Shown piece after piece: positions 13,496-39,492 of a DNA stretch of 64,000 bases. The position numbers and the translations under genes are program-made. The DNA is taken from NCBI RefSeq assembly GCF_024808255.1, contig NZ_JANTYS010000003.1, positions 124,001-188,000 on the forward strand, written 5' to 3'. Origin of the DNA: Mucilaginibacter dorajii (lineage in GTDB: Bacteria > Bacteroidota > Bacteroidia > Sphingobacteriales > Sphingobacteriaceae). The notes beneath the pieces are model-generated. The model searched no databases, had not been told where the DNA came from, and saw only the letters and a program-made list of their open reading frames with translations. The stretch's first letter is position 1. Each line of letters opens with the position of its first letter.

Positions 13496-13543
13496 TTAAC
13501 AACAACAGCTACACATGACCCTTTTTGGGAAGGGCATTCGCAT
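13496..13543 (-). CDS. Poly-cysteine leader peptide L1 (MRMPFPKRVMCSCCC)
   Basis: A 15-codon ORF lies in the 5' UTR of the dioxygenase gene, ending in Cys-Ser-Cys-Cys-Cys-stop, 92 bases before the start codon. It is too short for normal gene callers. Five other leaders in the window share the cysteine-rich end. A ribosome starved of Cys-tRNA would stall on the last codons, so this is a candidate cysteine-sensing attenuator. A 4-bp GC stem (CCGC/GCGG) follows within the next 50 bases. Confidence 0.75.
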   Translation of the reverse strand: MRMPFPKRVMCSCCC

Positions 13544-13590
13544 GGTAAATGCAAAGGATATGTGTTGGTGGTAATTCAATGTATATAATA

Positions 13591-13607
13591 TCTATGTATT
13601 TAATAGA
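13591..13607 (-). promoter_or_regulatory. Candidate sulfur-regulon operator B (dioxygenase gene)
   Basis: This is a perfect 5-7-5 inverted repeat, TCTAT-TAAATAC-ATAGA read on the minus strand. It lies 188 bases before the dioxygenase start and about 48 bases before leader L1. A TACATTGA box 7 bases further downstream may be the -7 element. Confidence 0.75.
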
Positions 13608-13660
13608 CTATTGCAAAAGTATTGAATTAATTTAATCAAACAAGTTTTTGTGAATTTTTT

Positions 13661-14440
13661 TTATTGTTTGTATAAACCGGCCGTGATATGTTCGATAAAA
13701 GCTTTTGGACTATGCTTTGCGGCCAGGGAGGATAGTTTGTTTAAGAAACCCGGTACAATCTCCGCCTTTTTTCGCAACAAGCCATTGATGCCTATACGTG
13801 CTACTTCATCGGCGGTCATATTAAATTTGGCGGCAAGTTCGGCCAATGCATCCATACCGGCGCTGTGCGCAAAACCTGTATCGGTAGGACCAGGACAAAG
13901 ACAACTTACCGATACGGTAGTTGACTTCAACTCATGCCGTAAAGCCCTGCTGAATGATAATACAAATGATTTTGATGCCGCATATACCGCCAGCGTAGGT
14001 ACTGCCTGGTAGGCGGCTGTGCTGCTCACATTTAAAATATAAGCTTGCTTTTGCGATTTTAAAGCGGGTATTAAATGATGTGAAAGCTCAACCAGGGCTG
14101 TCATGTTTACCTGCATCATGCTTGCTTGACTAATAATATCCAGTTCGCCGAAGTTGCCCCAAATACCCAGACCTGCATTGTTAATTAATATAGATACAGG
14201 TACATTTAATGTTTTAATCCATTCTGCAATTTGGCTGGCAGTGCCGCTAACAGAAAGATCGGCTACATAATAATAGGTAGCTTCAACGCTATATTGAGAT
14301 TTGACAAGTGTTGTTAAATTTTCCAGCTCATTTGCAGACCGGGCAACCAGCAACAGGTTGTAGCCTTTTTGAGCAAGCAATAACGCTATCGCCCTGCCTA
14401 TGCCCTTACTTGCACCTGTTATTAAAGCATACTCCTTCAT
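13661..14440 (-). CDS. Short-chain dehydrogenase/reductase (SDR)
   Basis: This 259-residue classical SDR has the cofactor motif TGASKGIGRA near the N-terminus, the NNAG strand (ILINNAGLGIWG) and the catalytic YAASK (Tyr-x-x-x-Lys) preceded by a serine in LNVSSTAAY. The C-terminal PGPTDTGFAHSAG loop is typical of the DltE/YqjQ-like group. It is cytosolic and uses NAD(P)H; the substrate is unknown. The gene is divergent from the papain-like secreted protein at 14673. Operator C lies between them, so both may respond to the same regulator. Confidence 0.9.
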   Translation of the reverse strand: MKEYALITGASKGIGRAIALLLAQKGYNLLLVARSANELENLTTLVKSQYSVEATYYYVADLSVSGTASQIAEWIKTLNVPVSILINNAGLGIWGNFGELDIISQASMMQVNMTALVELSHHLIPALKSQKQAYILNVSSTAAYQAVPTLAVYAASKSFVLSFSRALRHELKSTTVSVSCLCPGPTDTGFAHSAGMDALAELAAKFNMTADEVARIGINGLLRKKAEIVPGFLNKLSSLAAKHSPKAFIEHITAGLYKQ

Positions 14441-14494
14441 TTTGCAATTGTTTAAGCCATTAAAAATTCATCCGTGTGCAAGTTTAATAAATAC

Positions 14495-14511
14495 TCTACT
14501 AATTTTGTAGA
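14495..14511 (+). promoter_or_regulatory. Candidate sulfur-regulon operator C with overlapping promoter
   Basis: The sequence TCTAC-TAATTTT-GTAGA is a perfect 5-7-5 inverted repeat. Its TTTG (14504-14507) and the downstream TATGTTTG (14528-14535) are exactly 20 bases apart, which fits the Bacteroidota -33/-7 promoter consensus. A bound protein would cover the -33 element. Transcription would begin near 14540, almost at the ATG of leader L2. It sits between divergent genes. Confidence 0.78.
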
Positions 14512-14543
14512 CTATTTAAAATGTTATTATGTTTGTACCGGAT

Positions 14544-14603
14544 ATGAAAAATAAGGGAGTTTATTTACCGGCTATTTATAGTGATCGTTGTTGTTGCGGA
14601 TAA
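14544..14603 (+). CDS. Poly-cysteine leader peptide L2 (MKNKGVYLPAIYSDRCCCG)
   Basis: This 19-codon ORF ends in Arg-Cys-Cys-Cys-Gly-stop, 69 bases before the start of the secreted protein at 14673. The predicted transcription start near 14540 leaves only a few bases of 5' UTR, so translation may be leaderless or nearly so. That arrangement is known for cysteine-responsive leader ORFs in mycobacteria. Its function as an attenuator here is inferred. Confidence 0.75.
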   Translation: MKNKGVYLPAIYSDRCCCG

Positions 14604-14672
14604 AATAGATTTGCACCTATACTGATTGCGGCATCCTGCTGTTAATAACAATATCAATTTAAATTTTTCTGT

Positions 14673-15863
14673 ATGTCCATCTCCTATATATTACGTTTTA
14701 GCAAGGCTTTACCTGTTATCATTTGCCTGTTGTTTACTATGTCAGCCCATGCCCAGTTATCTGCTGCGGTACATTACAGGCCCACCAGGCCAGATACATC
14801 AGATATCAACATTAATGATTTATCTTTAAAAAGCGCAAATAAAGCAACCACTGCTGCAGCCAATGAGTCAAATTCCAATACTGTTAAAATAAATTTTATA
14901 GAAAACTTGGAAACCCACTTAAGCAACCGGCAGGAGCGTAAATTGCTGATGGGTTATTTAAAAGAACTTTCGGCAGATAATAGCGAAATAACCTATAACC
15001 AATCAAAGGTGAAGCTTTATTACCGGCTGGCCAATGTATTCGCCAGGCTAAGGCTATATCCGCTGGCTATGAAATGCTTCTTCAAAACAATCAAGCAAAA
15101 TAAGGTACCCGGTGACGAGCCAAGTACCAGTTCTGCTATTGATTCGCTAACAGCTGATAGCGCCGCTCAGCAAAAGTTGGATAAAAGCGGGTACCTGGCT
15201 ATTAATTCAAGCGACGACTCCCTGTTTGTTAACAATCCCCGCCCCACTGATTTAAACGACAAAACTGAAAAGAAAAGTAAGGCAATTACCTATGACCGTA
15301 TTACCGGAACTTTCAACGACGGTAAAAAGGCCGCTGCTTATGCATTGTTATTTCACGTGAAGCAGCCGGTGCCGGGAAAACCCAAGGTATTTAAACTGGC
15401 TAATACCGGGCACACTTTTATTACGCTTATTAAATATAATACCGATTCAAGTTCTGTTTCTGTTTCGTTTGGTTTTTATCCGCAAAAGGATAACCTGATA
15501 TTTTCGGCAACGCCCTGGAACCCCACCTGCTCGGGAACCTTTAAAAACGACAATGATCATAACTGGGATGAAGTGTTAGGCCGTTTTATCTCTAAAAGAC
15601 GGTTTGACCGGATCATGAAATTGATAAAAGATTATGATGGATTAGATTACCATCTATCTAAAAACAATTGTACCGATTTTGCCCTTAAAGCGGCTTCATT
15701 TGCTGGCTTTGGCGTTACCGAAACAAAGGGAAGCTGGCCTTTAGGCCATGGGAATAACCCAGGCACCACTGGGCAGGGAATCCTATCCGGAGCTGTATCC
15801 GGCATAAACGGAACGCGGGATATTTTTGTAGATTACGATAAATCACTATTAAAAAATAATTAA
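14673..15863 (+). CDS. Secreted protein with putative permuted NlpC/P60-like (papain-fold) domain
   Basis: The 396-residue protein starts with a signal peptide (residues 1-27, cut near SAHAQ). Residues 60-150 are a helical, charged segment; about 150-210 looks like a flexible linker. The C-terminal domain (about 220-370) has a histidine in NTGHTFITLIKY and a cysteine in SKNNCTDFALKAA. These resemble the His/Cys pair of DUF4105-like or LRAT-like papain-fold proteins. Hydrolysis or transfer on a thiol or amide substrate is possible, but I cannot assign a reaction. It is preceded by operator C and leader L2, so it belongs to the sulfur regulon. An alternative ATG at 14626 is in another frame and rejected. 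Confidence 0.7.
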   Translation: MSISYILRFSKALPVIICLLFTMSAHAQLSAAVHYRPTRPDTSDININDLSLKSANKATTAAANESNSNTVKINFIENLETHLSNRQERKLLMGYLKELSADNSEITYNQSKVKLYYRLANVFARLRLYPLAMKCFFKTIKQNKVPGDEPSTSSAIDSLTADSAAQQKLDKSGYLAINSSDDSLFVNNPRPTDLNDKTEKKSKAITYDRITGTFNDGKKAAAYALLFHVKQPVPGKPKVFKLANTGHTFITLIKYNTDSSSVSVSFGFYPQKDNLIFSATPWNPTCSGTFKNDNDHNWDEVLGRFISKRRFDRIMKLIKDYDGLDYHLSKNNCTDFALKAASFAGFGVTETKGSWPLGHGNNPGTTGQGILSGAVSGINGTRDIFVDYDKSLLKNN

Positions 15864-15873
15864 TTCTATAATG

Positions 15874-15890
15874 TCTATGGATTTAATAGA
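15874..15890 (+). promoter_or_regulatory. Candidate sulfur-regulon operator D and promoter
   Basis: The perfect inverted repeat TCTAT-GGATTTA-ATAGA starts 11 bases after the stop of the preceding gene. A consensus -7 box TATATTTG follows at 15900-15907, with 9 bases between. Transcription should begin near 15911. This drives leader L3 and the DsbD-alpha-like gene. Confidence 0.78.
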
Positions 15891-15911
15891 ATATAATTGT
15901 ATATTTGTGAC

Positions 15912-15982
15912 GTTATAGCATTTGGTACTCCTTCGGCACAGGAAGGAGATTGGTATTTATAACCTGTAACTTAAGCTATAAC
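15912..15982 (+). ncRNA. Candidate structured 5' UTR element (three-way junction), unclassified
   Basis: An 8-bp closing stem (GTTATAGC 15912-15919 with GCTATAAC 15975-15982) begins right at the predicted transcription start. Inside are a 7-bp hairpin (CTCCTTC 15928-15934 with GAAGGAG 15942-15948) and a smaller GGT/ACC hairpin (15952-15964). It lacks the AGCAAC and GGTGCTAA signatures of SAM-I, so it is not the same class as the riboswitches at 16965 and 38496. It occupies the position those have in sister operons. The structure is seen by eye only. Confidence 0.45.
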
Positions 15983-16000
15983 TAATAAACTTAATCATAA

Positions 16001-16072
16001 ATGAATACATTCTACTACCAGTTTTCTAATACGCCCGGCCGGTATTATAGCGTTATCCTGATGTGTTGTTGA
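16001..16072 (+). CDS. Poly-cysteine leader peptide L3 (MNTFYYQF...LMCC)
   Basis: This 23-codon ORF starts MNTFYYQFSN and ends Leu-Met-Cys-Cys-stop, 53 bases before the DsbD-alpha-like gene. Its first residues resemble those of leader L5 (MNTFHYHYPH), suggesting duplicated leader cassettes. It follows the structured element at 15912-15982. Confidence 0.75.
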   Translation: MNTFYYQFSNTPGRYYSVILMCC

Positions 16073-16125
16073 TATATCATCTGCAACCTGCTACATAGGA
16101 TACACTTTACAAAATCATTTACCTT

Positions 16126-16572
16126 ATGAAAAAAATTATACTAACGGCCATAGCCATTACTTTAAGCAGCGAGGTTTTCGCACAGATACTAACTCCTGTA
16201 AAATGGTCATATGCGGCCAAAAAGGTTGATAAAGATCAAGCAGTTGTATTTATAAAAGCCACCATAGATAAAGGCTGGCATATTTACTCGCAGCACCTTA
16301 CGGATGGCGGACCGGTTAAAACGACGCTGAAGTTTGCAGAAAACAATGATTACGCCCTAATAGGCAATGTCATCGAACCCAAATCGGTTACTAAGTATGA
16401 AAAATCATTTAGTATGAACGTGCAGTACTTTGAGCAATCGGTAATATTTCAGCAAAAAATAAAATTGAAGGCCGGGCAGGCTACCGTAAACGGAACCGTA
16501 AATTATATGGTATGTAGCAACCAGCAATGCCTGCCACCAGAAGATGTAGAATTTAATATTCCTGTAAAATAA
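16126..16572 (+). CDS. DsbD N-terminal (alpha)-domain-like periplasmic protein
   Basis: This 148-residue exported protein has a signal peptide at residues 1-19 (cut near VFAQ). The mature part matches the immunoglobulin-like N-terminal domain of the thiol reductase DsbD, with KATIDKGWHIYSQHL near residue 45 and the paired cysteines in MVCSNQQCLPPEDVEF near the C-terminus. In DsbD these two cysteines receive electrons and pass them to periplasmic oxidised thiols. Here the domain stands alone, without the transmembrane and thioredoxin parts. The adjacent TlpA-like proteins may be partners. It is preceded by operator D and leader L3, so expression should respond to sulfur supply. Confidence 0.85.
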   Translation: MKKIILTAIAITLSSEVFAQILTPVKWSYAAKKVDKDQAVVFIKATIDKGWHIYSQHLTDGGPVKTTLKFAENNDYALIGNVIEPKSVTKYEKSFSMNVQYFEQSVIFQQKIKLKAGQATVNGTVNYMVCSNQQCLPPEDVEFNIPVK

Positions 16573-16635
16573 AATACCTAATCATTCATGCAGCCGATAG
16601 CCACCAATTAACCTGCTGTACTTTTAAATAATACC

Positions 16636-16710
16636 ATGAACTTAAGCAGAAATTTAATAGTCCTGGCCCGCAAACAGAATGGTGGCATCCCTTTCTGTTG
16701 TTATTGCTAA
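16636..16710 (+). CDS. Orphan poly-cysteine leader peptide L4 (ends PFCCYC)
   Basis: This 24-codon ORF begins MNLSRNLIVL and ends Phe-Cys-Cys-Tyr-Cys-stop, 63 bases after the DsbD-alpha-like gene. It fits the leader family, but no gene follows in its transcript. The next 170 bases contain only a large inverted repeat and then operator E. It may be a leftover from a deleted gene, or may control readthrough into the TlpA operon. Confidence 0.6.
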   Translation: MNLSRNLIVLARKQNGGIPFCCYC

Positions 16711-16754
16711 AAGCATCCTTCCAGCCATTTTTTTGAATATCCATTATAAGATAT

Positions 16755-16827
16755 ACATCCTGGCTGTACTAAGTGCGTTGCTTTGCTATGGTGGTAATTC
16801 AGGCGTGTGCTGTACAGTCCAGGATGT
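16755..16827 (+). terminator. Large imperfect inverted repeat between two sulfur-regulated units
   Basis: The arm ACATCCTGGCTGTAC (16755-16769) pairs with 16812-16827 apart from one bulged base. The loop is 42 bases. An AT-rich TTATTATTTTA follows. It lies between orphan leader L4 and operator E and may end the upstream transcript, or be a conditional terminator for L4. Confidence 0.5.
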
Positions 16828-16878
16828 TTATTATTTTACAAGATAAACAATTAGTAAAAGATAAAAAATTAAAAATAT

Positions 16879-16895
16879 TCTACTAAATCTATAGA
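16879..16895 (+). promoter_or_regulatory. Candidate sulfur-regulon operator E and promoter
   Basis: TCTAC-TAAATCT-ATAGA matches the 5-7-5 consensus with one base of asymmetry between arms. A near-consensus -7 box TGTATTTG follows at 16902-16909, so transcription should start near 16913. A perfect 8-bp hairpin (CTAATTAA/TTAATTAG, 16938-16961) precedes the riboswitch. Confidence 0.75.
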
Positions 16896-16964
16896 TTTTA
16901 TTGTATTTGTCATATTTATTATTATCTTTACACCATTCTAATTAACCCCACCATTAATTAGTTG

Positions 16965-17076
16965 ATTTATAAAGAATAAGGGAGAGGAAGTCTCGATGAT
17001 CTTATAGCAACTTTTCAGGAACCTGGAATAAGTGCTAAACTTTTTCCGATAGCGATGATGCCGCCGGAATATAAAT
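16965..17076 (+). ncRNA. SAM-I (S-box) riboswitch, divergent
   Basis: All four helices can be drawn: P1 ATTTATA/TATAAAT (16965-16971 with 17070-17076), P2 ATAAG/CTTAT with an inner GAGA/TCTC, P3 TTTTCAGG/CCTGGAA, and P4 TTCCG/CGGAA. The conserved AGCAAC after P2 and GTGCTAA after P3 are present. The family consensus after P3 is GGTGCTAATTCC; here it is AGTGCTAAACTTTTTCC, so the J3/4 region is altered. It lies between operator E and leader L5, ahead of two TlpA-like genes. Confidence 0.72.
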
Positions 17077-17088
17077 TAACTAACAGTC

Positions 17089-17178
17089 ATGAATACATTT
17101 CACTACCATTACCCGCATGTGCAGTCCGCAGTCATCAAACGATGTTGCTGTTTGGTTCAGTACGTTTTCTGGTTTTAG
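17089..17178 (+). CDS. Poly-cysteine leader peptide L5 (MNTFHYHY...KRCCC...)
   Basis: This 29-codon ORF starts MNTFHYHYPH, has Lys-Arg-Cys-Cys-Cys at residues 17-21 and ends LVQYVFWF. Unlike the other leaders it continues eight codons past the cysteines. It starts 12 bases after the SAM-I riboswitch. Two hairpins follow: AAGGCT/AGCCTT at 17215-17231 and TGGGC/GCCCA at 17233-17249. They could form a conditional structure before the TlpA start at 17297. Confidence 0.75.
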   Translation: MNTFHYHYPHVQSAVIKRCCCLVQYVFWF

Positions 17179-17296
17179 CAGCCGGATAATCTAAAATTTA
17201 TAGTGTCTGTTTTAAAGGCTTGCAAAGCCTTATGGGCAACCTATGCCCAAATTTTCAGCCATCGCTTCAATTAACAACAATTAAAACTTATACAAA

Positions 17297-18616
17297 ATGA
17301 AAACTACAAACTACTTAAACAAAACCAGGCTGCTGACTGCCGCTTTATTGCTTAGCGGGGTCAGCGTGTTATCGGCCCACGCAACCCCAAAGCCTAAATT
17401 TATAAAAGAAGGTAAATGGCGTGGTGAATTTACTGTAAGTGAATCAAAAGTTCCTTTCAACTTCGAACTGAAAGGCAAGGATGCAGAGCACGCGGTGTTT
17501 ACATTAATTAATGGCTCCCGCCGCGACAATTTTCATGTAAAATCTATAGGCACCGATTCTGTATACATCAAAATGAACACCTATGATGCGGCATTGGTAG
17601 CCAAAATAGAGGATGATGGATCGTTAAGTGGTGAATACCGTAGCCTGGTGCCAGGTTTCAGGGGTAATTCTTTACCATTTACTGCCGAATATGGTAAAAC
17701 GTACCGCTTTGTTGAACCAGGCAAAGATGTAGCCCCCAAAGCCGATCTGACTGGTAAGTGGGAAATTAAAACCTACAGTAAAGAGGCTGTTCCGGCCTCT
17801 ATCGCCTTGTTAAAACAAAAAGGAAACAAGCTTACCGGTGTGGTAATGACCGTTGTTGGCGATACCCGTGAACTGGAAGGAACAGTACAGGGCGATGAGT
17901 TTGCATTGAGCGGCTTTACCGGCCCAAGTCCGTTTATTATAAAAGGCAAGATCAATGCCGATGGTTCTATCAGCGGTGAAGAAGGTTTTGGCATCTATAA
18001 AAACCTGAAGTTTGATGCCGCTAAAAAAGCAGAGGTTGAGTTGCCCGATCCTTATAAGCTTACTTTTTTAAAAGAGGGCTATAAAAAACTTGATTTCTCT
18101 TTCCCCGGTATCGATGGTAAGCAGGTTTCATTAAGCGATGCCAAATACAAAGGTAAGGTAGTGATTGTAGAGATCATTGGCACCTGGTGCCCTAACTGTA
18201 CCGATCAAACCGTATTTCTTTCGCCATGGTTCAATAAAAACCACCAGCGTGGGGTAGAAGCCATCGCTTTAGGTTTTGAGCAGAAAGATAGCCTGGAATA
18301 TGCCAAATACACTTTAGGCAAGCTGAAAGAAAAATATGAGATCAATTACGATATCGCCTTTGGGGGACTGGCCGATAAAAAGCTGGTATCGCAAAAACTG
18401 CCTGCATTGAACAAATTCATCGCTTTCCCAACTACTATTATCATTGATAGAAAAGGCGATGTAAGAGAAATATACACTGGTTATACAGGTACCGTAACCG
18501 GCAAATACCATGAAGATTACGAAAAGAAATTCAACAAACTGCTGGACGAACTGATTGCAGAACCGGCTCCTGAAACCGCCGCGGTTGTTGAACCTGCAGC
18601 TCACCAGGGTAATTAA
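17297..18616 (+). CDS. TlpA/ResA-like thioredoxin-domain protein with large N-terminal domain, copy 1
   Basis: The 439-residue exported protein starts with a signal peptide (residues 1-29, cut near SAHA). The N-terminal region (about 35-250) consists of two beta-rich lipocalin-like or DUF4369-like halves (WRGEFTVSESKVPFNFELKG; GKWEIKTYSKEAVPA). The C-terminal thioredoxin fold (about 265-420) has the redox motif CPNC at 298-301 in GTWCPNCTDQT and the cis-Pro loop AFPTTIIID. Such proteins reduce or oxidise periplasmic disulfides. Its promoter has operator E, a SAM-I riboswitch and leader L5. A paralogue follows 29 bases downstream. Reductive release of thiols from imported disulfides is a reasonable inference. 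Confidence 0.9.
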   Translation: MKTTNYLNKTRLLTAALLLSGVSVLSAHATPKPKFIKEGKWRGEFTVSESKVPFNFELKGKDAEHAVFTLINGSRRDNFHVKSIGTDSVYIKMNTYDAALVAKIEDDGSLSGEYRSLVPGFRGNSLPFTAEYGKTYRFVEPGKDVAPKADLTGKWEIKTYSKEAVPASIALLKQKGNKLTGVVMTVVGDTRELEGTVQGDEFALSGFTGPSPFIIKGKINADGSISGEEGFGIYKNLKFDAAKKAEVELPDPYKLTFLKEGYKKLDFSFPGIDGKQVSLSDAKYKGKVVIVEIIGTWCPNCTDQTVFLSPWFNKNHQRGVEAIALGFEQKDSLEYAKYTLGKLKEKYEINYDIAFGGLADKKLVSQKLPALNKFIAFPTTIIIDRKGDVREIYTGYTGTVTGKYHEDYEKKFNKLLDELIAEPAPETAAVVEPAAHQGN

Positions 18617-18645
18617 TATTAACAGATCCTATAACAATATATCAA

Positions 18646-19974
18646 ATGAAAACAATCAACTTAATCACATCATTCAAATGCCTGTCTGTAGGCTTATTGT
18701 TCAGTGGAGCTGCGGCATTGGCTGCCGATAAAAATCCGCCTGTTAAATTTATTAAAGAGGGCGTTTGGCGCGGCGAATTTACCGTGGCCGAAACCAAAGT
18801 GCCATTTAATTTTGAATTGAAAGGCAGGGATGCCGAGCATGCTGTATTTACACTGATAAACGGAAGCCGCCGGGACAATTTTCACGTAAAACAGATTGGT
18901 AAAGACTCGGTATTCATCAAAATGAATACTTATGATGCCGCCCTGGTAGCTAAGGTTCAGGAAGATGGAACGCTGACCGGCGAGTATCGCAGCCTGGTAC
19001 CAGGTTTCAGAGGAAATTCGTTACCCTTTACTGCGGAGTACGGTAAAACCTACCGCTTTGTTGAACCCGGTAAAGATGTTGCACCAACAGCCAATTTAAC
19101 CGGCAAGTGGGAGTTAAAAGTTTACTCTAAAGACCAGGTGCCTAACAAAATCGCTGTTTTAAAACAAACAGGTAACACACTGACCGGTGTAATTATGCAG
19201 GTAACCGGCGATAGCCGCGAACTGGAAGGTACCGTTCAGGGCGACGAGTTTGAGTTATCGGGTTTTACAGGCCCAAGTCCTAAAATATACAAAGGCAAAA
19301 TCAATGCCGATGGAACATTAAGCGGCGAAATTGGCTCTGGTATTTATGATAATACCAAGTTTGACGCGGTAAAGGATGATAAAGCCGAATTGCCAGACCC
19401 TTACAAACTAACCTACCTTAAAGAAGGCTATAAAAAGCTCGACTTTACTTTTCCCGATCTGAACGGTAAACCGGTTTCGCTTAGTGATGATAAGTATAAA
19501 GGCAAAGTAACCATCATTGAAATTGTAGGTACTTGGTGCCCTAACTGTACCGATCAAACTGTATTTCTGTCGCCATGGTTCAACAAAAACCATAACCGCG
19601 GGGTAGAAGCCATTGCCATCGGTTTTGAGCAGAAGGACAGCCTGGAGTATGCCAAATACACATTAGGTAAGCTGAAAGAGAAATACAATATTCAGTACGA
19701 TATTGTTTTTGGCGGCCTGGCCGATAAAAAACTGGTTTCGCAAAAACTGCCTGCACTCAACAAATTTGTAGCATTCCCAACCACCATCATTATCGACCGT
19801 AAAGGCGATGTGCGTGAAATATACACAGGTTACACAGGCACAGTTACCGGTAAATATTACCAGGATTACGAAAAGAAATTCAACAAGCTGTTGGATGAAT
19901 TGATAGCCGAGCCTGTACCGGCCAGCGCGGCTAACGTTACAGGTAACGATAATAAAGAACTTAAAGGAAAATAA
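18646..19974 (+). CDS. TlpA/ResA-like thioredoxin-domain protein, tandem copy 2
   Basis: The 442-residue protein is a close paralogue of the preceding gene along its full length. It has the same signal peptide layout, the same WRGEFTV start of the mature region, CPNC at 298-301 and the same AFPTTIIIDRKGDVREIYTG block (split as AFPTTIIID and RKGDVREIYTG). Differences cluster in the signal peptide, residues 160-250 and the C-terminus. The tandem pair points to a recent duplication, with either dosage or substrate divergence as the reason. It shares the promoter of copy 1. A strong hairpin follows the gene. Confidence 0.9.
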   Translation: MKTINLITSFKCLSVGLLFSGAAALAADKNPPVKFIKEGVWRGEFTVAETKVPFNFELKGRDAEHAVFTLINGSRRDNFHVKQIGKDSVFIKMNTYDAALVAKVQEDGTLTGEYRSLVPGFRGNSLPFTAEYGKTYRFVEPGKDVAPTANLTGKWELKVYSKDQVPNKIAVLKQTGNTLTGVIMQVTGDSRELEGTVQGDEFELSGFTGPSPKIYKGKINADGTLSGEIGSGIYDNTKFDAVKDDKAELPDPYKLTYLKEGYKKLDFTFPDLNGKPVSLSDDKYKGKVTIIEIVGTWCPNCTDQTVFLSPWFNKNHNRGVEAIAIGFEQKDSLEYAKYTLGKLKEKYNIQYDIVFGGLADKKLVSQKLPALNKFVAFPTTIIIDRKGDVREIYTGYTGTVTGKYYQDYEKKFNKLLDELIAEPVPASAANVTGNDNKELKGK

Positions 19975-19983
19975 ACTAAACCC

Positions 19984-20017
19984 AAACCCGGTAAAGGGTA
20001 ACAGCTTTGCCGGGTTT
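19984..20017 (+). terminator. Hairpin between TlpA copy 2 and YceI gene
   Basis: AAACCCGG (19984-19991) pairs with CCGGGTTT, extended by a G-T pair and AAAG/CTTT, for about 13 bp. A short AT-rich tail follows with no long T-run. It may reduce, rather than stop, transcription into the downstream genes. Confidence 0.6.
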
Positions 20018-20041
20018 AATTAAACAACCATAAAAACCACC

Positions 20042-20710: not shown

Positions 20711-20758
20711 GCGGTAGATATACACAATTAAATTAAAAATTCGGCCGCCAAAAATATG

Positions 20759-20860
20759 CCGCCAATAGGCGGATGGCCATTGTTTTGACCAAAAAAGCAT
20801 TTAAAAACTCGTTTAAAGTTGGAAACGGATCCGTGAGCCGGGATATATTGAGTATCCCGG
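20759..20860 (+). terminator. Two hairpins between YceI and peroxidase genes
   Basis: CCGCC-AATA-GGCGG (20759-20772) and CCGGGATA/TATCCCGG (20838-20860) are perfect stems of 5 and 8 bp. They lie in a 192-base gap. The second is 43 bases before the peroxidase start codon and could act as a terminator or regulate translation. Confidence 0.5.
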
Positions 20861-29033: not shown

Positions 29034-29050
29034 TATCTTATATTTGAATA

Positions 29051-29997: not shown

Positions 29998-30059
29998 CTA
30001 TTAAATATTTTTGAAAGGAATTTAAACAGTTTCTGAGATCTTTTCTATAAGTTTACCGC

Positions 30060-30140
30060 AACTTTAGGGGTGTCCTTTACTGGACTGAGATAATACCCTT
30101 TGAACCTGATGCAGTTAGTACTGCCGAAGGGAAAAGTGAC
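30060..30140 (+). ncRNA. TPP riboswitch (THI box)
   Basis: The hallmark pieces are in order: GGGGTG, CTGAGA, ATACCC, TTGAACCTGAT, GTTAGTACTGCCG and GGGAA. It lies about 90 bases before thiS. It should lower expression of the whole thiamin operon when thiamin pyrophosphate is plentiful. Between it and thiS is an ACAACT/AGTTGT inverted repeat that could be the expression platform. Confidence 0.95.
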
Positions 30141-30232
30141 GACAACTTTACGCGATATCTTTATTTGATATTTAGTTGTTATTTCTTTCCTCCATACGGG
30201 GCCATTCCTAAAAGTTATTTTTTAGACTCAGA

Positions 30233-32337
<2,105 letters not shown>

Positions 32338-32344
32338 TACTGAA

Positions 32345-32956
32345 ATGGAGCTGATCATTATATCTGCCCCTGAGGTAATTGCCGACGAGGCGACTATCAT
32401 CAACCGGCTTTTCGAAACCGGCATGAGTCGTTTCCACCTGCGCAAACCCAGCTGGGATATCAAGCAGGTAAGTGATTTATTGATGCGGATCGACAAATCG
32501 TTTCACGGGCAAATGGCTTTACACCAGTATCATGAAATGGCCGGATACTTTGCGATTAAAGGATTGCATTACAAGGAAGAGGAGCGCATCCGCACGTCGC
32601 CCGAAAAACTGATTGGGCAAAAAGAACAAGGATACATATTAAGCACCTCTGCTCATGATTTGCAGGTATTACCATCACTGGGCGCATTTGATTATGCTTT
32701 TTTTGGGCCGGTATTTAACAGTATTTCCAAGCCAGGCTACGAGGGTAAGGTTTTGAAGCCATTTTATTTGGATAAAACGGGTATCGGTCAGCAAGTGATC
32801 GCTTTGAGTGGCATAAACGAAACTAATTTGAATAAAGTTAAGGAAATGAATTTTGACGGTGCCGCTGTATTGGGGGCGATTTGGAACAATCCGCAGCAGG
32901 CGGTTGCCAACTTCAACAATTTAAAAACCTTAACAAAAACTAAACCAGATGATTGA
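32345..32956 (+). CDS. ThiE/TenI-like protein, first of a tandem pair
   Basis: The 203-residue protein uses the ATG at 32345, 7 bases after the thiC stop; the longer frame that starts in thiC is rejected. It has the TIM-barrel pattern of thiamin phosphate synthase (SRFHLRKPSWDIKQVSDLL; LSTSAHDLQVLPSLGAFDYA; FFGPVFNSISKPGY; VIALSGINETNL). It lacks the phosphate- and Mg-binding NDxxDLA-type segment that the next gene has in part, so it is more likely a TenI-type thiazole tautomerase. Its end overlaps thiE by 8 bases. Confidence 0.8.
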   Translation: MELIIISAPEVIADEATIINRLFETGMSRFHLRKPSWDIKQVSDLLMRIDKSFHGQMALHQYHEMAGYFAIKGLHYKEEERIRTSPEKLIGQKEQGYILSTSAHDLQVLPSLGAFDYAFFGPVFNSISKPGYEGKVLKPFYLDKTGIGQQVIALSGINETNLNKVKEMNFDGAAVLGAIWNNPQQAVANFNNLKTLTKTKPDD

Positions 32957-33593
32957 CAGACTGCATTATATATCGCAACAACCAGCGAATGGCACACATA
33001 TTACCGCTATAAAAGCCGCGCTTAAAGCCGGTGCTAAATGGATTCAATTAAGGGTTAAGGAGCAACCAAAGGAAGATATTCTTGAATACGCGTTATACGT
33101 TGGTGAGCTATGCAACGAATATGGCGCTAAACTAATTGTGAATGATCATCCCGAAATTGCGCTGAAGGCGGGCGCTTACGGCCTGCACCTGGGCTTGGAT
33201 GATATGCCGGTTAACCAGGCCAGGGCCATTGTAGGTAAAGACATGGTTATAGGTGGCACAGCAAATACGTTTGAACACATCAGGCAAAGGGTTGCCGAGG
33301 AGGTAGATTATATAGGCCTTGGGCCGTACCGGTTCACCAAAACCAAACAAAAACTCAGCCCGATATTGGGCCTGGATGGTTATGCCGAAATTATCAAAAA
33401 AGTGAAACTGGCAGGCATTCAAACACCAATAATTGCCATAGGCGGTATTGAACAACACGATATAAGCGCCATTATGCAAACAGGTTTATATGGTGTAGCC
33501 GTTTCTGGTGCCATTACTTATGCAACTGATGCTGAAACAATGGTTAAACAGATGTATCAGCAGCTAAACAGCACTTATTTGTTAGAGGTTTAA
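32949..33593 (+). CDS. thiE: Thiamine-phosphate synthase ThiE
   Basis: The 214-residue TIM-barrel enzyme joins HMP pyrophosphate and thiazole phosphate to make thiamin phosphate. Motifs fit: [47 protein letters not shown] and [12 protein letters not shown]. The start overlaps the end of the TenI-like gene, consistent with translational coupling. It is the second ThiE-like protein in the operon and the one with the better-kept active site. Confidence 0.92.
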
Positions 33594-33604
33594 ATCAACA
33601 CACA

Positions 33605-34372
33605 ATGTTAAAAATAGCAGATAAAATATTCAGTTCGCGCCTGTTTACAGGCACGGGAAAGTTCAGTTCTTCGGCTTTAATGGAAGAAGCCTTGCTGGCA
33701 TCAGGTTCTGAATTGGTTACCGTTGCCTTAAAACGGGTAGACATTAGCAATAACGACCATGATGATCTATTGCTCCGTTTAAAATACCCGCATATCAACT
33801 TGCTGCCCAATACTTCTGGTGTGCGTAATGCCAGGGAAGCGGTGTTTGCTGCCCAACTGGCCCGTGAGGCCCTGGAAACCAACTGGATAAAGCTGGAAAT
33901 TCATCCTGACCCTAAATACCTGATGCCCGACCCCATAGAAACCTTAAAGGCTACTGAAGAACTATCTAAACTGGGTTTTATAGTGTTGCCATACATTCAT
34001 GCCGATCCGGTTTTATGTAAACGGTTGGAAGATGCAGGAACCGCTGCCGTAATGCCCTTGGGTTCGCCAATTGGCAGTAACAAAGGCTTGAAAACCATCG
34101 ATTTTTTAGAGATCATCATTAGCCAAAGTAATGTGCCGGTTATTGTTGACGCGGGTATAGGGTCGCCCTCTGATGCGGCCCGGGCCATGGAAATTGGTGC
34201 CGATGCTGTTTTGGTAAATACAGCAATAGCTGTATCAGCAAATCCGGTACAAATGGCAGCGGCATTTAAGTTGGCTGTAGAAGCCGGACGGATGGCTTTT
34301 GAGGCAAAATTGGCGTCTCCTGTTTTACATGCAATTGCAACCAGTCCATTAACCTCGTTTTTAGATGAATAG
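33605..34372 (+). CDS. thiG: Thiazole synthase ThiG
   Basis: This 255-residue TIM-barrel enzyme forms the thiazole ring from deoxyxylulose phosphate, dehydroglycine and the ThiS thiocarboxylate. The Schiff-base lysine is in [10 protein letters not shown] (about residue 98). The phosphate-binding loops are in [13 protein letters not shown] and [20 protein letters not shown]. The stop overlaps the thiH start by 8 bases. Confidence 0.96.
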
Positions 34373-35477
34373 CTTCAACGATATTTTTGAAACCTATAAC
34401 TGGGACGAAACCAAAGCCTCCATTTATGCCAAAACCGGCGATGATGTGGAACGGGCTTTGTCGGCAACCAAACGAACGTTAGAAGATTTTAAGGCTTTGG
34501 TTTCGCCGGCCGCCGCCCCTTATCTTGAGCAAATGGCACAGATAAGCCAACGGCTTACATTAAAACGCTTTGGTAAGGTGCTTCAAATGTATGTGCCGCT
34601 CTATTTATCTAACGAGTGCAGCAACATTTGTACCTATTGCGGCTTTAGTTACGATAATAAAGTAAAGCGTAAAACCCTTTCGCCTATAGAAATTATGCAG
34701 GAGGTAGCAGCAATAAAAGCTATGGGCTATGAGCATGTACTGTTGGTTACCGGCGAAGATAACGTAAACGTGCACGTAGATTACTTTAAAAAAGTACTGG
34801 AACTGATTCGGCCGCATTTCGCGCATATCTCTATGGAAATACAACCCATGGACCTGGAAGATTACCAACAGTTAACACCCTATGGCTTAAATACAGTACT
34901 GGTTTACCAGGAAACGTATCACCAGGAAGATTATAAGAAACACCATCCGAAGGGGAAGAAATCAAATTTTAAATACCGTGTGGAAACACCGGATAGGCTG
35001 GGAAAAGCCGGGATACATAAAATGGGGCTTGGTGTATTGATTGGCCTGGAAGACTGGCGCACCGATTGTTTTTTTACCGCCGTTCACCTCAGTTACCTGG
35101 AAAAGAAATACTGGCAAAGCAAATACAGCCTCTCTTTCCCAAGGTTGCGCCCTTTTAGCGGGGGGCTTGAACCAAAAGTAGAGATGAGCGACAGAGAACT
35201 GGTGCAGCTGATTTGTGCTTACCGTTTATTTAATGAGGAGGTGGAGCTATCGATCTCTACCCGCGAGTCGCCAAATTTTCGGAATAATATTATCAAACTG
35301 GGTATTACATCCATCAGCGCCGGTTCTAAAACTAATCCGGGTGGTTACGTGGTTGAGCCTGAATCTTTAGAGCAGTTTGAAATATCTGATGAACGTAGTC
35401 CGTCCGAAATAGCCAGGGTAATCACCGCACAGGGTTATGAGCCCGTGTGGAAAGATTGGGATAAATGTTTAGCCTAA
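34365..35477 (+). CDS. thiH: 2-iminoacetate synthase ThiH (radical SAM)
   Basis: The 370-residue radical-SAM enzyme cleaves tyrosine to dehydroglycine for thiazole synthesis. The cluster motif Cys-x3-Cys-x2-Cys is in [10 protein letters not shown] near residue 85. SAM-contact regions such as LLVTGEDN and the C-terminal BATS-type domain ([13 protein letters not shown]) are present. Presence of ThiH rather than ThiO indicates the anaerobic-type route to dehydroglycine. Confidence 0.95.
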
Positions 35478-35487
35478 ATAATAAACG

Positions 35488-36540
35488 ATGTTGGAGCGCG
35501 AGGAATTAAAACGGTATAACCGCCAGATCATATTACCCGAGCTGGGAATTGAAGGGCAGCAAAAATTAAAAGCAGCCAAAGTATTGATGATAGGTGCCGG
35601 TGGCCTGGGTTGCGCTGTTTTGCAATATCTGGTTGCGGCAGGTGTTGGTACAATTGGAATAGTTGACGATGATGTGGTTGATTTGAGCAACCTGCACAGG
35701 CAAATCTTGTACTCAGCCGCCGACTTGGGGAAATCCAAAGCCATAATAGCTAAACAAAAGCTGGAAATACTTAACCCATTTATAAACCTGGTGGCTTACC
35801 CGGAAAGGTTCACATCTGATAATGCCGCCCGGCTTGTTAATATGTACGATGTGGTTATTGACGGTTCTGATAATTTCCCGACCAGGTACCTGGTCAACGA
35901 TACTTGTGTGGCATTAAACAAACCGCTTGTTTTTGGCTCAATTTTTAAGTTTGAGGGGCATATATCCGTTTTCAATTATAAAAACGGACCAAATTATAGA
36001 GACATTTTTCCTGAACCTCCTCCAGAAGATGAGGTTCCCAATTGTTCGGATATTGGTGTAATTGGTGTATTGCCGGGCATTATAGGAACTTATATGGCCA
36101 ATGAAACAATTAAGGTTATTTGCGAAATAGGGGAGCCCCTTTCAGGTAAGCTACTTACCATCGGTGCGCTTGATAACACCATGGCTATTTTTGAAATAGC
36201 CATGGAAGAGCAAACAAAACCCACTCAGGCATCAAATGAAGATAAGCCTGTTCTCCTTGTAGCAGACGAGATTTCAATAGAAGTTTTAAATACCTGGATA
36301 GCTAAAACGCCCGAACAAATTTACCTGGTTGATGTACGTGAAGACTATGAATTTGAGGATTACAATATCGGTGGGATAAACATATCTCTTTATGACGTTC
36401 AGGAACATATTTCAACCTTTCCGGTCGATAAGAAACTTGTTTTTGTATGCCAAACGGGTGAACGAAGTAAAATGGCGGTTAACATAGTAAAGGCCCATTT
36501 TAAGGGAGAGGTTTTTAGCTTAAAAAATGGGATATTATGA
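35488..36540 (+). CDS. thiF: ThiF-type adenylyltransferase fused to a rhodanese domain
   Basis: The 350-residue protein activates ThiS by adenylation. An E1-like domain covers residues 1-245: nucleotide loop GAGGLGCAVLQYL, DDDVVDLSNLHRQ, and the catalytic-Cys area PNCSDIGVIGVLPG. A rhodanese domain covers about 255-350, with the active-loop cysteine in VCQTGERSKMA. The zinc-binding CxxC pairs usual in MoeB/ThiF are missing: the first site reads NGPNYRDIFPEP instead of CxxC. The fused rhodanese could receive persulfide from a cysteine desulfurase and pass it to ThiS. The stop overlaps thiD by 4 bases. Confidence 0.92.
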   Translation: MLEREELKRYNRQIILPELGIEGQQKLKAAKVLMIGAGGLGCAVLQYLVAAGVGTIGIVDDDVVDLSNLHRQILYSAADLGKSKAIIAKQKLEILNPFINLVAYPERFTSDNAARLVNMYDVVIDGSDNFPTRYLVNDTCVALNKPLVFGSIFKFEGHISVFNYKNGPNYRDIFPEPPPEDEVPNCSDIGVIGVLPGIIGTYMANETIKVICEIGEPLSGKLLTIGALDNTMAIFEIAMEEQTKPTQASNEDKPVLLVADEISIEVLNTWIAKTPEQIYLVDVREDYEFEDYNIGGINISLYDVQEHISTFPVDKKLVFVCQTGERSKMAVNIVKAHFKGEVFSLKNGIL

Positions 36541-37373
36541 GTAAGCAATATAAATATACGGCCCTGCTTACCATTGCCGGATCGGATAGCTGTGGGGGAG
36601 CAGGGATACAAGCCGATTTGAAAACATTTAGTGCCCTGGGCTGCTACGGAACTTCGGCAATTACCGCTATTACCGTGCAAAACACATTGGGGGTAAGCGG
36701 TATTCACAGTATACCGGCTGAAATTGTGAAGGGGCAGATTAAGGTTGTGATGGATGATATTAAACCAATGGCAATCAAAATCGGTATGGTTCATTCCGCA
36801 GAATTGGCCGTCGCAATTGCAGCAGTTTTAAAAGAATATCCACAAATACCGGTCATTTTTGATCCGGTAATGGTATCAACCAGTGGTCACCGTTTAATTG
36901 AAAAAGATACGATAGCTGCACTTCAAAAAGAATTATTCCCAAAGGCAAAGTTGATTACGCCCAATTTAAGCGAGGCAGAAATACTCGCGGCAATGAAAAT
37001 CAATAACGTTGCTGACATGAAAGAGGCAGCCCGCCGGATGATAACAGCCGGATGTAACGCGGTTTTGGTTAAAGGAGGCCACTTACAAGGGCCCGATCTG
37101 TTTGATGTGTACCTTGATAAGAATGGATTTGAAAAGACATTCCGGTCAACTGCCATTAGCACAAAAAATACACATGGTACCGGCTGTACACTATCTTCTG
37201 CTATTGCCGCCTTTGTTGGTTTAAATAATGATATCTATGTGGCCATTGAAAAGGCTAAAGCTTATGTGCATGAGGCCATCGTGGCCGGGCAGGATGTTAA
37301 AACCGGTGAAGGGCACGGACCATTAAACCATCTCTTTGATCCTCAAAAATTATTTAAACATGAAATGGAGTGA
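36537..37373 (+). CDS. thiD: HMP/HMP-phosphate kinase ThiD
   Basis: This 278-residue ribokinase-fold enzyme phosphorylates hydroxymethylpyrimidine twice to the pyrophosphate used by ThiE. Signatures are GSDSCGGAGIQADLKTFSAL at the N-terminus, DPVMVSTSGHRL, LVKGGHLQG and NTHGTGCTLSSAIA near residue 212. It overlaps thiF at the start and tenA at the end. Confidence 0.96.
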   Translation: MSKQYKYTALLTIAGSDSCGGAGIQADLKTFSALGCYGTSAITAITVQNTLGVSGIHSIPAEIVKGQIKVVMDDIKPMAIKIGMVHSAELAVAIAAVLKEYPQIPVIFDPVMVSTSGHRLIEKDTIAALQKELFPKAKLITPNLSEAEILAAMKINNVADMKEAARRMITAGCNAVLVKGGHLQGPDLFDVYLDKNGFEKTFRSTAISTKNTHGTGCTLSSAIAAFVGLNNDIYVAIEKAKAYVHEAIVAGQDVKTGEGHGPLNHLFDPQKLFKHEME

Positions 37374-38052
37374 AGTAGCCTGGCAAAGGGCCGAGCATGT
37401 TTTTCGGGCAATTATTACGATGCCTTTTATCCAGGAATTGATTTCGGGCACCCTGGATTCAGAAAAATTCAAGTTTTACATTGCGCAGGATTCCCTTTAC
37501 CTGGAGCATTTTGCACGGGCACTTGCAATAATAGCAGCCAGGTCAAATGAAACTGAGCAGGTACTTGATTTCATCCGGTTTGCCGAAGGCGCTATCGTGG
37601 TGGAGAATGCTTTGCACAATAATTATTTTAAAGAATTTGATATCACCAAAAACATTCCACAATCGCCATCTTGCCACCACTATACCAGTTATTTATTAAA
37701 AGAAGCAGCTTTAGCCCAGGTGGAAGTTGCAATGGCCTCGGTATTGCCTTGTTTCTGGATCTATAAAAAGGTTGGGGATTATATTTATCAGCACCAAAAC
37801 AAGAAAAATAATCCCTATCAAACCTGGATCGACACCTATGCAGGAAAAGAGTTTGACTTATTGGTAAATAAGGCAATCCGCATTTGTGATGAGGCTGCAA
37901 ATAGCTGCACGGCTGTACAGCAAGGTAAAATGACGGCCGCGTTCCTGAAATCGTGCCAATTGGAATGGCTGTTTTGGGATAGCGCATGGCGGTTAGAGCA
38001 ATGGCCTTTTCCTGCCAATATTTTAATTGATACCGGTGTTCACTACCGCTGA
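37360..38052 (+). CDS. tenA: Thiaminase II / aminopyrimidine aminohydrolase TenA
   Basis: The 230-residue all-helical enzyme salvages pyrimidine from degraded thiamin. The catalytic cysteine is in SVLPCFWIYKKVG near residue 130, and YIAQDSLYLEHFARALA is typical. The ATG at 37360 gives the standard N-terminus (MKWSEVAWQRAEHVF) and overlaps thiD by 14 bases. It is the last gene of the thiamin operon; no convincing terminator is seen in the next 100 bases. Confidence 0.94.
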   Translation: MKWSEVAWQRAEHVFRAIITMPFIQELISGTLDSEKFKFYIAQDSLYLEHFARALAIIAARSNETEQVLDFIRFAEGAIVVENALHNNYFKEFDITKNIPQSPSCHHYTSYLLKEAALAQVEVAMASVLPCFWIYKKVGDYIYQHQNKKNNPYQTWIDTYAGKEFDLLVNKAIRICDEAANSCTAVQQGKMTAAFLKSCQLEWLFWDSAWRLEQWPFPANILIDTGVHYR

Positions 38053-38436
38053 AATTTGAATAACATCCAGGTCGTTTTATAAAGCGAAGAGTGCCGATGG
38101 CTGGGCAAAACGTATCTAATTGGGTTAACATAACTTAACATATTTCAGATATTTATCTTATAAATAGTTAATAATCATGGTTTTATATTTTTGCATGGTT
38201 AACACTAAAATGGTGTATCGCGCAATTAGGCGCATTCAATATTTGTGCCTGTTGTTGCCTAATACAGATACCGGATAGACCTGGATCTTTTAACCGGCAT
38301 CAGGCGATAAAAACTAAGGTATCGCTTGATGCTTATATATTCCCACCGCATAAGCTTATTCCGTTAACTATTTAGATGCGTTTGCCCTGGTGCGGATTGG
38401 GCATATTTTTGATTTTGACAAATAAATTATATAATG
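38053..38436. other. Gap between thiamin operon and sulfur-regulated unit
   Basis: This 384-base gap holds no convincing gene. A 22-codon frame at about 38210 has no family features and does not end in cysteines, so it was not called. The promoter of the next unit begins at its end (operator F). Confidence 0.4.
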
Positions 38437-38453
38437 TCTATGTATTTAGTGGA
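38437..38453 (+). promoter_or_regulatory. Candidate sulfur-regulon operator F and promoter
   Basis: TCTAT-GTATTTA-GTGGA matches the 5-7-5 consensus; the right arm is degenerate. A perfect -7 box TATGTTTG follows at 38462-38469, 8 bases downstream, so transcription should begin about 38474. It is the promoter for the TlpA-like/SusC/SusD unit and is followed by a SAM-I riboswitch. Confidence 0.72.
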
Positions 38454-38495
38454 ATATATTGTATGTTTGCATCATCAAATAGTTCTTTAATTTTA

Positions 38496-38602
38496 ATTAT
38501 CAAGAAAGACTGAGGGAAAGGCCCTGTGATGTCTTAGCAACCTGTAAACTCTGGTTATAAAGGTGCTAATTCCTGTTTGCTGTTACCGGCAAAAAAGATA
38601 AT
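38496..38602 (+). ncRNA. SAM-I (S-box) riboswitch
   Basis: The hallmark GGTGCTAATTCC is exact (about 38562-38573), and AGCAACC follows P2. Helices: P1 ATTATC/GATAAT (38496-38501 with 38597-38602), P2 AAGAC/GTCTT with GGG/CCC, P3 AACC...GGTT, P4 TTTGC/GCAAA. High SAM should lower expression of the following TlpA-like, SusC and SusD genes. In Bacteroidota such switches usually control methionine or sulfur genes. Confidence 0.93.
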
Positions 38603-38724
38603 GTTCGCAAAATTATTGCACAGCTTATGGCTGGTCGTTATATCTTCTCCTTGTTTAATCTTTCTGTTAATTAAAATTCATGAACATTAATGCCTGTTAA
38701 AAGCGGGACTTAAAATTTACTGTT

Positions 38725-39288
38725 ATGAATATTAAACATTTACTTATTGCCTGCTTATTATTAATAACCGGAACAATCGCTTCGGCACAAACCGCATCGC
38801 CCGGGTCACCTGGTGACGACCGTGGGTATACCGTAAAGGTTGGCGACCAGGCTCCGTCAGATTTTGAGCTTCAACTTGCCGATGGTACTACAACTTCATT
38901 AAAAGCCCTGCGTGGCAAAGTAGTTATACTGCAATTTACCGCAAGTTGGTGCAGCGTATGCCGCCAGGAAATGCCTCATCTTGAAAAGGATGTTTGGCAA
39001 GCCTATAAAGATAAAGGCCTGGTATTAATTGGTGTCGACCGCGATGAGCCACTTGAAAAAGTAAAACATTTCCACCAGGAAATGAATATAAGCTATCCTT
39101 TGGCGCTTGACCCGGGGGCGGACATTTTTGGCCGTTTTGCCAACAAAAAAAGCGGCGTAACCCGCAATGTGGTTATCAATAAAGAGGGCAAAATAGTTTA
39201 CCTCACCCGCTTATATGATACCCAGGAATTTTCATCGATGCTAAAAGCGGTTGACGCCCTGGTTAACAATAAAACCGCATCTCTATAA
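38725..39288 (+). CDS. TlpA-like periplasmic thiol-disulfide oxidoreductase
   Basis: The 187-residue exported protein has a signal peptide (residues 1-22, cut near ASAQ). One thioredoxin domain follows with the redox motif CSVC at 76-79 in FTASWCSVCRQEMP. The AhpC/TSA-like element LIGVDRDEPLEKVKHF and the cis-Pro-type region near GVTRNVVINKEGK are visible. It is the first gene behind operator F and the SAM-I riboswitch and is followed by SusC/SusD. A thiol reductase encoded with an importer suggests that the imported substrate contains a disulfide or thiol, such as cystine or glutathione (inference). Confidence 0.92.
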   Translation: MNIKHLLIACLLLITGTIASAQTASPGSPGDDRGYTVKVGDQAPSDFELQLADGTTTSLKALRGKVVILQFTASWCSVCRQEMPHLEKDVWQAYKDKGLVLIGVDRDEPLEKVKHFHQEMNISYPLALDPGADIFGRFANKKSGVTRNVVINKEGKIVYLTRLYDTQEFSSMLKAVDALVNNKTASL

Positions 39289-39381
39289 ATTAATAATATC
39301 CTGCAATTATACCATTGGCATTCACTGCCGGCTAATATCAGGATGCAATTGCCAGGTTTTACGCCCTATATCTAAATTGTT

Positions 39382-39492
39382 ATGAAAACAACAAGTACAC
39401 CTTTACACAACATCTATCCTGCAAAACAAATTATGTTGCCTGTTTGCTCATCTGTTTATGCTTTTATGCAAAGCATGCGTTGTTGCTGTTAA
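39382..39492 (+). CDS. Poly-cysteine leader peptide L6 (ends SMRCCC)
   Basis: This 36-codon ORF starts MKTTSTPLHN and ends Met-Arg-Cys-Cys-Cys-stop; one more cysteine lies at residue 22. It lies between the TlpA-like gene and SusC, 192 bases before SusC. The interval 39493-39684 holds a TGGGC/GCCCA hairpin (39601-39617) like the one after leader L5 and no gene. So SusC/SusD can be tuned to cysteine separately from the TlpA-like gene. Confidence 0.72.
   Translation: MKTTSTPLHNIYPAKQIMLPVCSSVYAFMQSMRCCC

Follow-up and report, generated by a model that had tools for sequence, protein, structure and literature searches.

Upstream open reading frames with conserved C-terminal cysteine runs in Mucilaginibacter dorajii and other Bacteroidota, likely cysteine-sensing leader peptides of sulfur-linked genes

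The DNA analysed here, subsequently called the window, is a stretch of 64,000 nucleotides (nt) from Mucilaginibacter dorajii (NZ_JANTYS010000003.1, positions 124,001–188,000) which contains six short open reading frames (ORFs) ending, or nearly ending, in runs of cysteine codons. We consider them members of a family of upstream ORFs with conserved C-terminal Cys runs which probably serve as cysteine-sensing attenuators, a reading to which we assign a probability of roughly 80%. The ORFs are present, their Cys tails are kept in the related sequences, they are linked to sulfur genes, and they are frequently sited directly behind an S-adenosylmethionine (SAM) riboswitch. A Bacteroidota-wide family of leader peptides sensing cysteinyl-tRNA, often in tandem with SAM riboswitches, is the likely interpretation; we infer that the ORFs are translated and that charged tRNA-Cys is the signal. 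All six had been listed in a preliminary description of this DNA and all translate as it claimed (positions are those of the window):

13496–13543, minus strand: leader ORF MRMPFPKRVMCSCCC-stop, 92 nt upstream of the PhyH gene
14544–14603, plus strand: leader ORF MKNKGVYLPAIYSDRCCCG-stop, upstream of gene 14673
16001–16072, plus strand: leader ORF MNTFYYQFSNTPGRYYSVILMCC-stop, which ends in MCC and is the weakest of the six
16636–16710, plus strand: ORF MNLSRNLIVLARKQNGGIPFCCYC-stop, which ends in FCCYC and lies 3' of the DsbD_N gene
17089–17178, plus strand: leader ORF MNTFHYHYPHVQSAVIKRCCCLVQYVFWF-stop, with KRCCC followed by eight codons, starting 11 nt behind a SAM aptamer
39382–39492, plus strand: leader ORF MKTTSTPLHNIYPAKQIMLPVCSSVYAFMQSMRCCC-stop, which ends in MRCCC, 192 nt upstream of the SusC gene

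That such Cys runs exceed chance had been claimed beforehand, and the counts agree. On both strands of the window's 25 intergenic gaps, 8,054 bases in all, there are four ATG-ORFs of 10–60 codons containing CCC, whereas 200 shuffles that preserve dinucleotides give 0.08 on average and never more than 1. A looser rule, CCC or else CC near the stop, gives six ORFs against a shuffle mean of 0.42 (maximum 3), and these are exactly the six listed above.

Conservation in relatives, which had been set beforehand as a refuting test, proved strong for five of the ORFs and weak for 16001. The five downstream genes were searched in 61 Mucilaginibacter genomes, that of M. dorajii included, and the upstream DNA of up to 30 matches was read per gene. 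A CCC-tailed ORF precedes PhyH in all 22 loci (its own included, two coming from one genome), with tails ranging from CSCCC to CCCCCCC on peptides of about 10–27 residues. Orthologues of the SusC gene at 39685 (at least 75% identity) show CCC in 17 of 22 loci and CC in two more; in the paralogous loci, which served as a control, the corresponding figures are none and one of eight. For the redoxin gene at 17297 the orthologues (at least 85%) carry CCC at 9/9 loci, as compared with 0/21 CCC leaders among the control paralogues. Gene 14673 has a CCC-tailed ORF at all six orthologous loci (at least 60% identity) and a clear CCC at two of 24 more distant ones, L299 being ambiguous, and ORF 16636 has a counterpart with a Cys-cluster tail in six of seven relatives, three of them with CCC. 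Among loci where a contig end cuts the upstream DNA, L259 was positive and L226, L400 and L419 yielded no such ORF.

The strongest member of the family lies outside the window, in the leader of the O-acetylhomoserine sulfhydrylase gene (identified by TIGR01326). We assembled 110 loci of this gene, namely 30 of the 58 loci of the genus set and the best 80 of a longer list from named genomes, and scored the 107 having at least 300 nt upstream for an ATG-ORF within 500 nt with CCC in its last 14 residues. Such a leader is found at 68 of these 107 Bacteroidota loci, as compared with none in antisense, a shuffle mean of 0.2, and seven for the next residue, Leu; this count can miss members, locus L177 (Hymenobacter), scored negative, reading MCCCRPCCC-stop in an open frame. 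In the genus set CCC is present at 27 of 30 loci and CC at the remaining three, and one and the same leader peptide occurs in L136 (M. endophyticus) and in L109 of that set. Named positives include Pedobacter (some loci of which are negative), Hymenobacter, Pontibacter, Rufibacter and Chryseolinea, together with metagenome-assembled genomes labelled Cyclobacteriaceae, Saprospiraceae, Haliscomenobacter and Bernardetia. The rest of the intergenic DNA at the 80 named loci, 55,149 bases, yielded just two such ORFs (L184 and L191), and both immediately follow a SAM riboswitch that precedes the sulfhydrylase.

The SAM riboswitch (RF00162) is present at 79 of the 80 sulfhydrylase loci tested (80 of the 110), L149 being the miss. 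At 48 of the 74 plus-oriented SAM loci scored, a CCC-ORF lies no more than 150 nt from the aptamer, its start following at a median of 7 nt (interquartile range 7–9). For metH, a control with the riboswitch in common (19 of 20 loci tested carry it), no CCC-ORF was found at 30 loci, and CC at two. As judged from these loci, the leaders associate with sulfur-linked genes and not with the SAM-riboswitch gene metH.

Genome-wide statements rest on pattern searches and on retrieved stretches of the 7.16 Mb genome; the backwards-read pattern, a poor composition match as a control for CCC-stop, was not used as proof. CCC-stop occurs 81 times in the whole genome, and all 81 sites were read. A greedy gene call places 72 of them inside larger ORFs, out of frame or antisense, and nine in intergenic DNA, where six are ATG-ORFs of at least 15 codons, two of them in the window. 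Two further ones share one region of contig C1: a tRNA-Cys gene follows the first, and the second is situated 278 nt upstream of a TonB-receptor gene with a SusC-like start; another lies 219 nt upstream of an AhpC/TSA gene and another between a SAM riboswitch and the O-acetylhomoserine sulfhydrylase gene. One of five "genic" sites that were rechecked (L055, 11 codons) is more likely intergenic and a seventh such ORF; the gene downstream of it has no Pfam match. The 72 sites inside called genes, and ORF 16001, unconvincing when taken alone, are what might be said for chance ORFs in A+T-rich intergenic DNA. The shuffles, together with conservation before independent gene families, refute that explanation for five of the six ORFs and leave it a negligible probability.

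It is the Cys tail that is conserved across the sets compared while the peptide body drifts, as would be expected of control codons. The peptides might instead be functional small cysteine-rich products, binding metals or acting in redox chemistry and sited by co-expression with sulfur genes, and some bodies are partly kept: QNGG.LFCC in relatives of 16636, MRMP in PhyH leaders and CCCLVQY.FWF in relatives of the redoxin leader. Yet from one gene set to another the bodies are different, within a set they drift while the tail stays, the position is fixed relative to the SAM aptamer and the gene, as the 7-nt median indicates, and the PhyH leaders have the short lengths given above; we regard such peptides as very unlikely.

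If the ORFs are cysteine-sensing attenuators, lack of charged tRNA-Cys would make the ribosome pause at the Cys run, and expression of the downstream gene would go up. With cysteine plentiful the ribosome would reach the stop codon and be released, and Rho could then enter the spacer; when cysteine runs short, the pausing ribosome would allow the formation of a protective fold, which at the sulfhydrylase would be a conserved hairpin just behind the stop. Units in which a SAM riboswitch immediately precedes the ORF would sense two supplies in series, that of methionine (as SAM) and that of cysteine (as tRNA charging). Less firmly, we suggest that Rho-type termination in the spacer, rather than an intrinsic terminator, may pass on the position of the ribosome. 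This route is a guess by exclusion, since neither intrinsic terminators nor start-site sequestration are supported at the sulfhydrylase.

The untranslated spacer between leader stop and gene measures 49–193 nt in the four sets measured, and 111–145 nt at the sulfhydrylase. There the 5' arm of the hairpin begins 8–14 nt downstream of the stop codon's first base in 33 of 34 leaders. Its pair cells are kept at 93.5%, compared with 36–72% in slid controls (30 loci), and ten pair cells have changed on both sides, which exceeds every one of 500 shuffles; RNAalifold, applied to the long sulfhydrylase alignment, returned only the outer stem. Terminator-like sites were sought in the same spacers and found in none of 35; SusC spacers contain two in 19 (shuffles 2.1) and redoxin spacers one in eight (shuffles 0.2). 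A conserved intrinsic terminator between ORF and gene appears to be absent, as it is in the actinobacterial type of leader. Compared with the trp type, the sequences present the control-codon leader peptide, and no intrinsic terminator with alternative antiterminator was seen in the 35 sulfhydrylase spacers. Of the attenuator arrangement proposed in the preliminary description, the conserved Cys control codons hold up, and the terminator half, sought at this best-sampled gene, was not found. Spacers poor in G were seen at the sulfhydrylase and at PhyH (C:G 2.0 and 2.4, background 1.2).

A rival explanation is a translational attenuator: a ribosome stalled at the Cys codons would cause the RNA to refold and so expose the downstream start, transcription being unchanged. 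This is the mechanism cited for the cysteine genes of Mycobacterium smegmatis (as given in PMC13236596), and the signature of Cys codons near the stop without a conserved terminator is the same (as described in PMC1262725). Against it, the modelled accessibility of the sulfhydrylase start is nearly constant with ribosome position (0.69 with no ribosome, 0.69 with one at the first Cys codon and 0.66 with one at the stop; 34 leaders), which led us to reject start-site sequestration there. We likewise rejected base pairing between Cys run and spacer, their complementarity being no higher than with shuffled spacers in any of four gene sets (mean z from –0.09 to 0.34). We rate translational control as possible, though doubtful. 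Among other candidates, a CAACAA-type element was dropped, being found in 6/8 redoxin (shuffles 1.5) and 7/19 SusC spacers (3.2), but in 10/35 sulfhydrylase spacers against 7.6 in shuffles, and a sigma-70 consensus scan remained at shuffle level (17 vs 15.5).

The ribosome might also be halted by the nascent chain itself, a Cys-rich or Arg-Met-rich tail stalling it on a metal, thiol or other ligand and not through codon hunger. Met or Arg often precedes the run (CMCCCC, MRCCC), and inspection by eye of the Sphingobacterium sulfhydrylase leaders (L172, L180, L182, L196, L215) showed scattered Cys with no Cys run, ORFs ending in ARMR, TRMR or SMRMR (in L196, in MRMRMHMHLPTC) and, in several, a GTCGTC/GACGAC hairpin-like repeat starting at the stop codon. 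However, the number and spacing of Cys residues vary freely, from CC to CCCCCCC, and the tail may extend past the run, so that codon counting suits the data better than a fixed peptide. Arrest peptides are in our estimation unlikely.

Several observations weigh against cysteine-sensing attenuators as we describe them. SusC loci L226, L237 and L242, three of the 22, have no Cys tail, gene 14673 is without a clear CCC leader at 22 of its 24 more distant loci, and ORF 16001 has a CC- or CCC-tailed counterpart at only two of the five next closest loci, which is weak. The run is absent from 39 of the 107 sulfhydrylase loci, including 10 of 11 Sphingobacterium loci and all 10 labelled Algoriphagus, Belliella, Cyclobacterium, Lunatimonas or Mongoliibacter. 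Covariation of the hairpin is modest, its number of two-sided pairs being reached by 189 of 500 shuffles and its number of pair types by 494, and the ribosome's modelled influence on it (covering the edge of the arm from the stop codon and not from the first Cys codon, 0.11 vs 0.70) is partly true by construction. It was seen only at the sulfhydrylase, RNAalifold finding no structure in SusC, PhyH or redoxin spacers. Finally, the SusC and redoxin spacers are hardly G-poor (C:G 1.35 and 1.29) and PhyH spacers contain terminator-like sites (4/21 vs 0.8 in shuffles), which is a further reason why Rho can only be guessed by exclusion.

Leaders of this kind are known from Actinobacteria. Seliverstov et al. 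(2005; PMC1262725), where trp leader-peptide attenuation is described as well, predicted poly-Cys leaders before the cys operons of Mycobacterium and Propionibacterium acnes and before cbs of Bifidobacterium, and suggested a Rho-type output for the actinobacterial cys leaders, which is the same position as taken here. According to PMC9094748 and PMC13236596, poly-Cys leaders were tested in mycobacteria by Canestrari et al. (2020), the ORF being leaderless by the title cited there. Leader-peptide attenuation at amino-acid operons of Flavobacterium psychrophilum receives general mention in PMC9723704. The actinobacterial leaders resemble ours in being short ORFs with a Cys run near the stop upstream of sulfur genes, and in having no conserved terminator, Rho being suggested for both. 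They differ in that here we are dealing with another phylum, with several gene families at once, with a SAM riboswitch directly upstream in many cases, and, at the sulfhydrylase, with a conserved hairpin that follows the stop codon. Nor are the sulfhydrylase and 17089 ORFs leaderless in the mycobacterial manner, since a SAM aptamer about 110 nt long precedes them.

Other known systems share single elements with the Cys-tailed leaders. A leader peptide rich in codons of the regulated amino acid is the hallmark of the classical attenuators of the trp, his and leu type; this the present leaders have in common with them, whereas the terminator/antiterminator pair is lacking at the sulfhydrylase (0/35). 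With SAM-I riboswitches (RF00162) the likeness is direct, both window aptamers scoring above the gathering cut-off and 79/80 sulfhydrylase loci having one; the difference is the poly-Cys ORF behind the aptamer in 48/74 scored loci. In the Rho-dependent leader-peptide systems, such as E. coli tnaC and Salmonella mgtL, and likewise here, translation of the leader would decide the access of Rho to the spacer.

The preliminary description knew of no report of such leaders from Bacteroidota, and our full-text literature searches, which miss most subscription papers, retrieved none; the same searches, with the same limit, returned no description of a SAM-riboswitch/poly-Cys tandem. The kind is already known in Actinobacteria, and its occurrence in Bacteroidota and the SAM tandem would be new by a literature search that is weak as a demonstration of absence. 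If our reading is true, cysteine-sensing leader peptides extend from Actinobacteria to a second, distant phylum, and there govern a regulon of several genes instead of one operon. Set 7 nt apart, the SAM riboswitch and the poly-Cys ORF would constitute a natural two-input gate for methionine and cysteine, the regulation of a SusC/TonB transporter and that of the sulfur-encapsulin neighbourhood could be approached through the leaders, and a class of short genes, unannotated according to the preliminary description, would have a clear signature.

The setting of the leaders in the window is as follows:

9462–11381, minus strand: family 2A encapsulin cargo cysteine desulfurase (NF041166), part of the setting
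11365–12285, minus strand: family 2A encapsulin shell protein (NF041162), beside the PhyH leader unit
12597–13403, minus strand: PhyH-family gene (phytanoyl-CoA dioxygenase family; PF05721), beside the encapsulin genes
14673–15863, plus strand: gene downstream of the 14544 leader, peptidase-like by a weak PPPDE-peptidase match below the Pfam cut-off
16126–16572, plus strand: DsbD N-terminal-domain gene (PF11412)
16964–17077, plus strand: SAM riboswitch aptamer (RF00162, 55.1 bits, cut-off 44.4)
17297–18616, plus strand: redoxin-domain gene (AhpC/TSA), by domain match
38494–38604, plus strand: SAM riboswitch aptamer (RF00162, 87.1 bits, cut-off 44.4)
38725–39288, plus strand: redoxin/TlpA-like gene behind the aptamer
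39685–42867, plus strand: SusC/RagA-family TonB-linked outer-membrane transporter (TIGR04056)
42867–44312, plus strand: SusD-like lipoprotein (PF12771)
44363–44436, plus strand: tRNA-Cys (GCA), one of the genome's five, immediately 3' of the terminator-like hairpin that follows SusD

The claim that each ORF lies in the leader of a sulfur or thiol gene unit, or beside one, needs some correction: ORF 39382 is located between the redoxin and SusC genes, and 16636 after the DsbD_N gene. For the PhyH and peptidase-like genes the sulfur link is one of neighbourhood only.

The genome's five tRNA-Cys genes comprise two behind SAM riboswitches, one behind a CCCC leader, one behind SusD, and a fifth immediately preceded by a promoter-like box; each of the 60 other genomes searched gave between 0 and 5 tRNA-Cys matches. 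Extra tRNA-Cys genes in sulfur units are seen in the window (44363–44436) and in L072 (1662–1733), L002 (1009–1080 and 1853–1926) and L303. At three loci of relatives (L338, L341, L344) a tRNA-Cys lies about 26–28 nt upstream of the DsbD_N gene, with no CC-ORF there. Between SusD and the tRNA-Cys of the window (44312–44362) a strong terminator-like hairpin with a T run was noted by eye, so that the tRNA would need read-through or an unseen promoter. It is about an even question whether Bacteroidota possess a sulfur-starvation circuit of wider scope, in which SAM riboswitches and poly-Cys attenuators in tandem, poly-Cys leaders also beside the family 2A sulfur-encapsulin cluster and before SusCD, and extra tRNA-Cys in the same units would read and set methionine supply, cysteine charging and tRNA-Cys dose together.

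A palindrome, CTAY-N7-RTAG, is located upstream of four leaders (13592–13606, 14496–14510, 15875–15889 and 16880–16894). It stands near the promoters of the leaders and occurs also at 6065 and, in degenerate form, at 38438; the loose pattern matches the window 27 times (shuffles 11.3), each palindromic site being counted twice. By eye it was recognized, partly degenerate, before other leader/SAM loci of the genome and in the relative L380, where it lies behind a gene resembling an Rrf2-type regulator, so that a sulfur regulator is possible. The start of ORF 14544 is close behind a promoter-like box (by eye). Behind ORF 16636, within 16711–16850, there is a long inverted repeat, ACATCCTGG ... 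CCAGGATGT, followed by T-rich DNA and terminator-like in appearance (by eye). Lastly, a thiamine pyrophosphate (TPP) riboswitch is situated at 30056–30149, upstream of a unit containing thiC/thiG.

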